Source: Candidatus Baltobacteraceae bacterium
GTDB lineage: Bacteria > Vulcanimicrobiota > Vulcanimicrobiia > Vulcanimicrobiales > Vulcanimicrobiaceae
DNA length: 58,127 bases
Direction: 5' to 3'
Assembly: GCA_035502855.1 (NCBI GenBank)
Contig: DATJTX010000032.1
Coordinates: 1 to 58,127 of the forward strand
Shown here: positions 37,758 through 39,840 of the stretch, one piece after another
Layout of the letters: the number at the start of each line of letters is the position of its first letter
Numbering within the stretch: the first letter of the stretch is position 1
The notes under the pieces: model-generated
Told to the model about the DNA's origin: nothing
Seen by the model: only the letters and a program-made list of their open reading frames with translations
Database searches by the model: none
Program-made: the position numbers and the translations under genes

Positions 37758-39062
37758 GTGAGCAGCTCGACCTTGAATCGCCTTGCGCCGACGCAGGTGG
37801 AATTGGAAATCCCGATCACTCCCGAAGAGATGGCCGCGGCACAAGAGCGCGCGTTCCGGCGCCTGGCCAAGAACGTCAAGCTGCCGGGGTTCCGGGCGGG
37901 TAAGGTGCCGCGTAAGGTGTTCGAGCAGACGTACGGTTCCGAAACGATTGCGAGCGAAGCGCTCGAGGACGTCGTACCCGAGGTCTACGCGCGCGCGGTG
38001 CGCGAGCACGAATTGGTCCCGGTCGATCGTCCGAAGATGGAGTTGCTGCCTGCCGAGGAGGGCAAGCCCTCGCGCCTGAAGGCGACCGTCGCGGTACGCC
38101 CCGCGATCGAGCTGCACGAGTACAAGGGGATCGTGATCGAGCGCGAGGAGCCCAAAATCGGCGACGATGACGTGGAACGCAGTATTTCCGCGCTGGCCAA
38201 AGAACGCGCGACCCTCGTTCCGGTCGAACGTCCGGCGCAGCTCGGTGACGTCGTCACCGTGGATTACGAGGGCAAGATCGACGGGGTCGCATTCGAGGGC
38301 GGCAGCGCGACGGGATCGATGACCGAGCTCGACGAGAACCGCTTCATCCCGGGCTTCGCATCCGGCATCGCCGGAATGCGTGCCGGCGAAACCAAAGACG
38401 TGGAAGCGACCTTTCCGCCAGACTACGCAAACGCAGATCTTGCCGGGAAGACCGCGGTCTTTACGGTCACCGTTCACGACGTCAAGGCGCTCGAGCTTCC
38501 CGCCCTCGACGATGAATTCGCGAAGGCGATTTCCGAAAACGAGACGCTCGATGCACTGCGCAGCGACGTGCGCAAACGGCTGGAAGCGATCGCGCAATCG
38601 CGCGCACGCCGCGCCGTCGGCAACGCGCTGATGGAAAAACTGATCGGAGCGCACGATTTTCCGCTTCCCGAAGTGCTCGTCGAACGCGAGATCGATAACA
38701 TGATCAACGATCTTGCCGCTCAAGTGGCGCAGAGCGGCGCGAATTTCGATGAGTATCTCAAGGAGCAGGGGAAGAGCGCCGAAGACTTGCGGGAGACCTT
38801 TCGCACCGATGCCGAGCAGCGGGTGAAGGGAACGCTCGTGATCGAGGAGATCGCCCGCGCCGAGGGGATCAATGCGACACCGGCCGACGTGGCCGAGGAA
38901 CTCGGTGCCCTCTCACGGCAATACGGTCAGCCCGTCGAGCGGATTCGCAAAGCGCTGGGGAATAACGTGATCTCGCTGATGGAGGGGATCGTCCGCAACA
39001 AGACGCTCGAGTTCCTCGTCGACAACGCCAAGGTCGTGGGAACCGCGGGCGCAAATCCCTAG
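37758..39062 (+). CDS. tig: Trigger factor
   Basis: The 434-aa ribosome-bound chaperone has the three usual parts: an N-terminal ribosome-binding domain with the signature GFRAGKVPRKV at about 44-54, an FKBP-type prolyl isomerase domain (about 155-240, VTVDYEGKIDGVAFEGG), and the helical C-terminal cradle. The start is GTG 37758. The stop TAG (39060-39062) belongs to a CTAG that flanks the foldback element at 39063-39339. No clpP or clpX follows, as often would. Confidence 0.96.
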   Translation: MSSSTLNRLAPTQVELEIPITPEEMAAAQERAFRRLAKNVKLPGFRAGKVPRKVFEQTYGSETIASEALEDVVPEVYARAVREHELVPVDRPKMELLPAEEGKPSRLKATVAVRPAIELHEYKGIVIEREEPKIGDDDVERSISALAKERATLVPVERPAQLGDVVTVDYEGKIDGVAFEGGSATGSMTELDENRFIPGFASGIAGMRAGETKDVEATFPPDYANADLAGKTAVFTVTVHDVKALELPALDDEFAKAISENETLDALRSDVRKRLEAIAQSRARRAVGNALMEKLIGAHDFPLPEVLVEREIDNMINDLAAQVAQSGANFDEYLKEQGKSAEDLRETFRTDAEQRVKGTLVIEEIARAEGINATPADVAEELGALSRQYGQPVERIRKALGNNVISLMEGIVRNKTLEFLVDNAKVVGTAGANP

Positions 39063-39339
39063 GGAAGCTCTGAAGAAGTCGCTGTACCGATCGCAAGGAG
39101 CATTTTCGGTGCGAATCGAGGCGCATCCGAGGGAGCATAGCAACGCGCTCTGTGACCGAGGATGCAACGAAGACCCGCACCGGAAAATGCCCTTGCCCGA
39201 AGGGTTATAGCCGCGATGGCGCATCTCCATCGTCGTCGGCTCGGTCACAGAACACCCTAGCTATGCTCCCTCGCCGACTCCTCGGATCTGCGGCCATCGG
39301 GGCCATAACGATCGGTGCATGGACTTCTTCAGAGCTTCC
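39063..39339. mobile_element. 277-bp CTAG-flanked foldback element with nested inverted repeats (MITE-like)
   Basis: The ends are inverted repeats: GGAAGCTCTGAAGAAGTC at 39063-39080 and its exact complement at 39322-39339, extending with three mismatches to 31 bases (ACCGATCG included). CTAG stands on both outer sides (39059-39062 and 39340-39343), as a 4-base target duplication would. Inside, 39128-39141 pairs with 39260-39273 (14 bases), 39149-39160 with 39240-39251 (12 bases), and 39093-39113 with 39176-39196 (about 19 of 21); the last pair cannot coexist with the others. No transposase-like ORF is visible, so any mobility would depend on an enzyme from elsewhere. Confidence 0.8.
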
Positions 39340-39840
39340 CTAGAGAATCGACTTGATGTCGGCGTCGAGCTGGTCTTTCGAGAGCTGGCCGACTTCGACT
39401 TTGCGCACGACGCCGCTCTTGTCGATGAAGACGCCGACCGGCATGCCGTTGACCTGATACTGATCGCTCAACGTTCCCGAATCGACGACGGCGGGATACG
39501 CGAGCTGGTGCTGCGCGACGAACTGCTTGGCTTTGGCCGCGTTCTCTTGCACGTCGACGCCGACGACTTGCAGGCCTTGCGAGCGGAATTGCTCGTAGGC
39601 GGCATTGATCTCCGGCGCCTCGTCATTGCACGGCGGGCACCAGGTCGCAAAGAAGTCCATGAATACGGGCTTGCCGCGCAGCTGCGCCATCGTCATCGTG
39701 CCGCCGCTGACCAGCGGGTCGCTCCAATCGGGCGCAGCTTGGCCGACGTGAGCCGTGGCGCTCGCGCCGCCGCCGCTTCCGCCGCCGCAAGCCGCCAGCA
39801 GCAACACCGTCGCTGCCGCAACCATCGATCGCTTATCCAT
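39340..39840 (-). CDS. TlpA/ResA-type thioredoxin-like lipoprotein
   Basis: The 166-aa protein has a lipoprotein signal (TVLLLAACGGG, cysteine 18) and a thioredoxin fold with the active site FFATWCPPC (Cys68, Cys71) and the cis-proline region VNGMPVGVFIDKSG. It should reduce disulphides outside the cytoplasm, for example in cytochrome c maturation, but no cyt c genes adjoin it. Its stop TAG is part of the CTAG at the right edge of the foldback element. The ATG overlaps the ribF stop by 8 bases. Confidence 0.9.
   Translation of the reverse strand: MDKRSMVAAATVLLLAACGGGSGGGASATAHVGQAAPDWSDPLVSGGTMTMAQLRGKPVFMDFFATWCPPCNDEAPEINAAYEQFRSQGLQVVGVDVQENAAKAKQFVAQHQLAYPAVVDSGTLSDQYQVNGMPVGVFIDKSGVVRKVEVGQLSKDQLDADIKSIL

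Follow-up and report, generated by a model that had tools for sequence, protein, structure and literature searches.

Two convergent genes in the window, a stretch of 58,127 nucleotides from a Candidatus Baltobacteraceae bacterium, are separated by a sequence that carries the same four bases on each side, raising the question of what this sequence is and how it came to lie there. On the plus strand, the trigger factor gene tig (37758–39062) encodes 434 codons that matched TIGR00115 with 436 bits, above its cut-off, and contained the domains Trigger_N, FKBP_C and Trigger_C. On the minus strand, an ORF of 161 codons (39340–39825) encodes a TlpA/ResA-like thioredoxin-fold protein, with matches to AhpC-TSA (91 bits) and Redoxin; the nearest NCBIfam model was ResA, below its cut-off. 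Direct reading of the sequence showed that exactly 277 bp (39063–39339) lie between CTAG at 39059–39062 and CTAG at 39340–39343, and comparison among copies marked these as the left and right copies of a 4-bp target. The first-pass annotation had already described this arrangement, with the stop codon of tig in the left CTAG and that of the TlpA-like gene in the right one, and both statements were confirmed: the TAG of tig occupies 39060–39062, and the right CTAG, read on the minus strand, ends the second ORF. It had also proposed that a four-base duplication supplied both stops and left the proteins unaltered, which follows directly from this reading and proved general, as double stops were enriched among the element sites (see below).

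We then examined the anatomy of the 277-bp sequence, which contains no gene. Its termini are inverted repeats, perfect over 18 nt and 89% identical over 38 nt, and there are two inner pairs besides, so that the inverted repeats reported earlier are real. A repeat search and comparison of copies placed the left terminal repeat GGAAGCTCTGAAGAAGTC at 39063–39080 on the plus strand, with imperfect pairing running on to about 39093, and the right one at 39322–39339 on the minus strand, with imperfect pairing from about 39309. The predicted fold of one strand reached −158.8 kcal/mol (z −11.5) and that of the other −169.5 kcal/mol (z −12.8), and none of the shuffled sequences folded as stably as either strand. 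In the predicted layout, a stem formed by the termini is followed by arm A, a long imperfect hairpin (39094–39195, plus strand), a small central hairpin CCCGAAGGG (39196–39204), which was also seen on comparison of copies, and the long arm B (39205–39308, minus strand).

The sequence recurs in the same genome (G000; 3.33 Mb in 39 contigs) in six other full-length places and in about 13 contig-end fragments, and therefore is not a chance arrangement. The further genomic copies that the first-pass annotation had proposed to search for thus exist, at seven full-length copies and roughly 20 in total, a number that is uncertain because many contig ends lie inside copies; for the same reason, we regard the element as a main cause of the fragmentation of this assembly. 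Contigs C7, C18–C23, C26–C29, C34 and C39 end within copies of the element. The copies are 94–99% identical, and these dispersed near-identical copies show that the element is mobile. Full-length copies with 69–75% identity were also found in relatives of other genera (G019, G027 and G024), and searches of PLSDB and IMG/VR returned no plasmid or viral relative. Among the full copies, three were flanked by CTAG/CTAG, including the one between tig and the TlpA-like gene, and one by TTAG/TTAG (C5); the others had the unequal flanks TTAG/CTAG (C25, L002) or flanks that have decayed, for example to CGAG/TTAG and CGAG/CTAG. The palindrome CTAG had been taken as the target; CTAG-type flanks did recur at other copies, but the target is the wider YTAR, as TTAG/TTAG illustrates. 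No relative examined has tig next to the TlpA-like gene, the usual neighbors of tig being clpP or tRNA genes; as this adjacency is not conserved among them, no empty site was found for this copy.

Reduced forms accompany the full-length ones. Five collapsed palindromes of both terminal repeats, 28–35 bp long (C20:14851, C24:141607, C24:156533, C39:115637 and C11:32433; L094–L097, L060), retain CTAG-like 4-mers on both sides, and three of the five separate convergent genes whose stop codons fall in one and the same 4-mer. We regard them as candidate minimal hairpins. In G024, the same termini enclose shrunken interiors of about 82–175 bp. A MITE family in G021 forms a size series of 223, 169, 128, 97 and 80 bp (C33:330853–331075, C1:46218–46439, C22:71028–71155 and C8:83522–83618; L489–L495), in which the 223-bp form contains an additional insertion close to the conserved hairpin tip described below and the shorter forms are without the tip. 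Such shrunken interiors match what deletion inside long hairpins would be expected to produce.

What kind of mobile element this is was deduced from its target and ends. The target of IS5 elements is Py-T-A-Pu, of which CTAG is the commonest (PMC5493358). In a relative of the same class (G047), an IS5-family transposase (NF033581, above cut-off) lies beside CTAG|GGATGCTCTGATCAATCA in a 1893-bp element with both ends present. In a relative of the same family (G009), an IS5-family transposase lies beside CTAG|GGAAACTCTGATGAAGAG; one end was seen and the other was not found, and this terminus is identical to GGAAGCTCTGAAGAAGTC at 14 of 18 positions. The first-pass annotation had also proposed a search for a transposase with matching ends: the profile search of the own assembly found neither PF05598 nor PF01609, and the 14/18-identical end in G009 is the nearest counterpart. 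A complete element combining exact GGAAGCTCTGAAGAAGTC ends with a transposase was not found, and the search for autonomous copies by terminal-repeat pattern returned MITE-sized pairs only, both for GGAAGCTCTGAAGAAGTC and for the terminus GAGGCTGTCGGAGTT of G021. G009 holds about 30 copies of a DUF772/DDE_Tnp_1 transposase on its contig C1 (L128, L134, L137, L139–L156), but the genome has no copy of the hairpin module.

The flanks could alternatively reflect another DDE family, of the IS630/Tc1-mariner type, which duplicates TA alone within CTAG. Across the flanks, the TA core varies least, and the outer bases differ in some copies, such as TTAG/CTAG at L002. However, the outer bases agree in most intact pairs. 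In G021, both TTAA/TTAA and CTAG/CTAG occur around one terminus, CAGGTTGCGG, with the same interior, which favors duplication of four bases over that of TA alone. Moreover, the sole transposases found with similar ends belong to the IS5 family, and we consider the duplication of TA alone very unlikely. From its anatomy, its YTAR target, its copies and the IS5-family transposases with similar ends in relatives, we assign the 277-bp sequence to the non-autonomous IS5-type elements (MITEs); the assignment is strong on anatomy and target, and the parent transposase is a putative one.

Next, the relationship between the target and stop codons was analyzed. Enumeration showed that CTAG, CTAA, TTAG and TTAA, which together make up YTAR, are the sole 4-mers that carry stops on both strands in this overlap. 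With stops called by a home-made gene caller, for which 800 kb of the own genome served as training data, double stops were found at 5 of 12 element sites with both flanks, compared with 4 of 331 background CTAGs (Fisher p = 2e-6). These 12 sites comprise the seven full copies and the five collapsed palindromes, the latter with a presumed origin from the element; without the palindromes, the count was 2/7 (p = 0.005). The five double-stop sites are the tig/tlpA copy, C25:43018 and the palindromes at C20:14851, C24:141607 and C24:156533. Single flanks were stops on 16 of 37 element sides and 92 of 662 background sides. Similarly, for elements with other termini in G021, which belongs to another genus, and in G028, about 15 of 26 sites, as counted by eye, lay at stops, compared with 92/469 in the background (p = 4e-5). 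The tig/tlpA case is therefore one instance of a rule. YTAR closes genes on both strands, which suggests how IS5-type elements enter compact genomes harmlessly and predicts where they accumulate.

It is possible, with slightly less than an even chance, that the double-stop locations are simply the places left over after purifying selection has purged insertions from genes, operons and promoters, an explanation compatible with the MITE assignment. Indeed, of the 159 background CTAGs located outside genes, 76 already serve as a stop on one or both strands. Nevertheless, double stops were still enriched relative to these CTAGs (5/12 versus 4/159, p = 8e-5) and when convergent sites alone were compared (5/7 versus 4/39, p = 0.002), although the numbers are small. 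Selection against harmful insertions would account for part of the stop enrichment, and targeting may add to it.

The excess at convergent sites would also fit a resident two-way terminator or insulator that the host keeps between convergent genes, with mobility being secondary and the collapsed 28-bp hairpins being its minimal form. This explanation can draw on the very stable predicted fold of both strands and on the CTAGGGAAGCTCTGAAGAGCTTCCCTAG-type palindromes at C20:14851, C24:141607 and C24:156533, which lie between convergent genes ending in the same 4-mer. For the possible two-way terminator suggested in the first-pass annotation, however, there was no T-tract signal: a search of the element ends for intrinsic terminators, in which a T-run follows a hairpin, returned one chance-level site only, outside the element. 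Furthermore, near-identical copies are dispersed also in tandem and intragenic-looking places, and a terminator would have no need of a conserved tip sequence common to other phyla. Such a host-kept terminator or insulator is therefore rather unlikely.

The most unusual part of the element, its conserved hairpin arms, was overlooked in the first-pass annotation. Its first sign was that some relatives matched positions 166–237 of the query only; the alignment of those stretches gave one conserved hairpin. Each foldback arm ends in this hairpin of ~73 nt, in which the tandem G.A mismatches are fixed and covariation is strong. In the window, the covariance model (R1) located core A, with its tandem G.A mismatches, at 39109–39180 with 69.7 bits, readable on the plus strand, and core B at 39220–39292 with 82.6 bits, readable on the minus strand. 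The consensus of the module is GAGGNG...GAGGGAGCATA-loop-TCTGTGACCGA...CGACGA. Among 111 distinct sequences, the G.A pairs at the two inner tandems were retained in 103–109 and a U.C mismatch in the helix was nearly fixed (99/111), and the Watson-Crick pairs varied on both sides (for example, C-G in 54, U-A in 39 and G-C in 14). The covariation score was 0.322, compared with 0.095 ± 0.004 for shuffled sequences (0/500), and slid structures did not exceed 0.076; this alignment was fitted to the covariance model and thus leans towards it, but a structure-free MAFFT alignment gave the same result. The 17 first-found sequences likewise scored 0.268 versus 0.088. In a background of 876 kb, the element alone scored above chance in the covariance model, save for one weak match. 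This covariation shows that the module works as a folded single strand, which may be RNA or DNA. No covariance model of Rfam 15 matched the element at E ≤ 10, and none matched the module copies in 17 loci; a description of the module was not found in the open-licence papers searched.

Of 60 relatives searched with the covariance model, 19 carried the hairpin, and G021 and G028 each had more than 40 copies. A scan of 84,980 species genomes with a 20-base pattern returned 116 stretches, where about 3 were expected by chance according to our estimate. Among the 80 of the 116 matches listed, the contigs were labeled, as given for the MAGs, Eremiobacterota, Verrucomicrobia, Planctomycetota, Clostridia, Nitrospinota, Bacteroidetes, Akkermansia and one gammaproteobacterium. 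Of 20 genomes from the scan, 19 contained model matches, with between 1 and 76 per genome; two Clostridia had 18 and 8, a Nitrospinota record had 39 and a planctomycete with megabase contigs had 50. The gammaproteobacterial record fell below the model threshold and was not relied on. In the Clostridia genome RGIG2098 (L243, 2746–3542), an M-box magnesium riboswitch (RF00380, 2856–3016) lies between two copies of the hairpin on the same strand, spaced ~740 bp apart.

The same hairpin was found within elements of at least eight different terminal repeats. Three of these occur in the own genome, namely GGAAGCTCTGAAGAAGTC, GAGCCTCCAATGATATCC (C31:203980–204400, L362) and TGTTCCGCGCC (C4:10100–10390, L363), and others in other genomes (CAGGTTGCGG, GAGGCTGTCGGAGTTGAGC, GGGCACCTCGATAAATCC, TGTCGTGTATCCCAAATAG, GGGTCTGTGCAAAAATTACTTCC and GAGCCTGTCTGAAAACTCAGAGG). 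The flanks of these module-bearing elements with varied termini were mostly of the YTAR or T-N-A type; the own-genome GAGCCTCCAATGATATCC and TGTTCCGCGCC elements likewise lie at CTAG-type sites. The module was present in none of six IS5-type loci tested in relatives. In two-arm elements, the arms face inward in 30 of 30 cases, A being on the plus and B on the minus strand at a spacing of 107–122 nt, and a CCC-GGG mini-hairpin usually separates them. Single-arm elements occur in G028, G021 and the planctomycete, and in these the orientation of the G.A strand showed no bias with respect to the upstream gene (7 codirectional and 10 opposed).

Taken together, an IS5-type MITE at YTAR double stops that carries a conserved folded hairpin module is very probably the explanation of this locus. 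A DDE transposase of the IS5 family would recognize GGAAGCTCTGAAGAAGTC in trans and insert the element at Y-T-A-R with a 4-bp duplication, as suggested by the termini, the target and the copies. Since YTAR can end a plus-strand and a minus-strand gene simultaneously, insertion at a shared stop would regenerate a stop on each side, as at tig and tlpA. Such sites would then retain the element, and its persistence there may come about because neither protein changes. Because the arms face inward, a polymerase coming from either side would read a G.A-form arm first, and a transcript or melted strand entering from either side would meet the G.A-form hairpin first, which would suit a role as RNA. 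A role as single-stranded DNA or as a cruciform is equally possible, since the orientation of single-arm elements does not follow that of the upstream gene. We do not claim a simple 3′-UTR role, given the same unbiased orientation.

MITEs are usually viewed as deletion remnants with an arbitrary filler interior. Here, the interior is the most conserved part across phyla, with compensatory changes in the stem and fixed mismatches, while the ends that face the transposase differ. This combination implies that the interior has a function and opens the identity of the factor that reads it to testing. Most likely, the module aids the persistence or spread of the element rather than serving the neighboring genes, and it might do so by shielding from read-through or through a conserved host factor that recognizes the folded strand. 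We somewhat favor the broader proposal of a transferable cargo, namely the structured single-strand module with its ~73-nt tip, stacked tandem G.A pairs and, often, an inward-facing arm pair enclosing a small central hairpin. It may have been acquired by, or have outlived changes of, many IS5-type termini while spreading through several phyla, giving these MITEs a conserved function at the RNA or ssDNA level.

Finally, we compared the element with known systems. RAYT transposases recognize folded single strands, and a REP/BIME-type repeat moved by such a Y1 tyrosine transposase, with the inverted arms as a REPIN-like dimer, would resemble the element in being palindromic, dispersed and inversely paired with a conserved folded single strand. 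Nevertheless, REPs are defined as palindromes of 20–40 bp tagged GTAG or CGTC (PMC3733652), whereas the arms here are about 100 nt long with the consensus GAGGGAGCATA..TCTGTGACCGA, no GTAG tag was seen, and the element is bounded by terminal repeats of the IS5 type within a duplicated YTAR. Y1_Tnp (PF01797) was absent from G000, and hence no RAYT was found in the genome, and from most module-bearing relatives, without correlation with the module. We thus rejected the REP/RAYT origin as highly improbable.

The MITE itself is of a known kind. Like known MITEs, it is short, non-coding and intergenic, with terminal inverted repeats, a YTAR duplication, many copies and a stable fold; it differs in its covarying, sequence-conserved hairpin module, which is common to differing termini and phyla, and in that no parent IS was found in the genome. 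With the IS5 subgroup of IS5, it shares the Py-T-A-Pu target, CTAG being the commonest (PMC5493358), and termini related to those beside the transposases of G047 and G009, but it has no transposase gene, and the tested autonomous IS5-type loci in relatives are without the module. Bacterial MITEs of the SPRITE/BOX/QMITE type have been proposed to be terminators or RNAs (reviewed in PMC10969869), and their transcripts are similarly predicted to fold strongly and to be possibly regulatory. These are unrelated, and each is known from an individual species or lineage; by contrast, the conserved inner module, which was found neither in Rfam 15 nor in the open-licence papers searched, appears to span several phyla.
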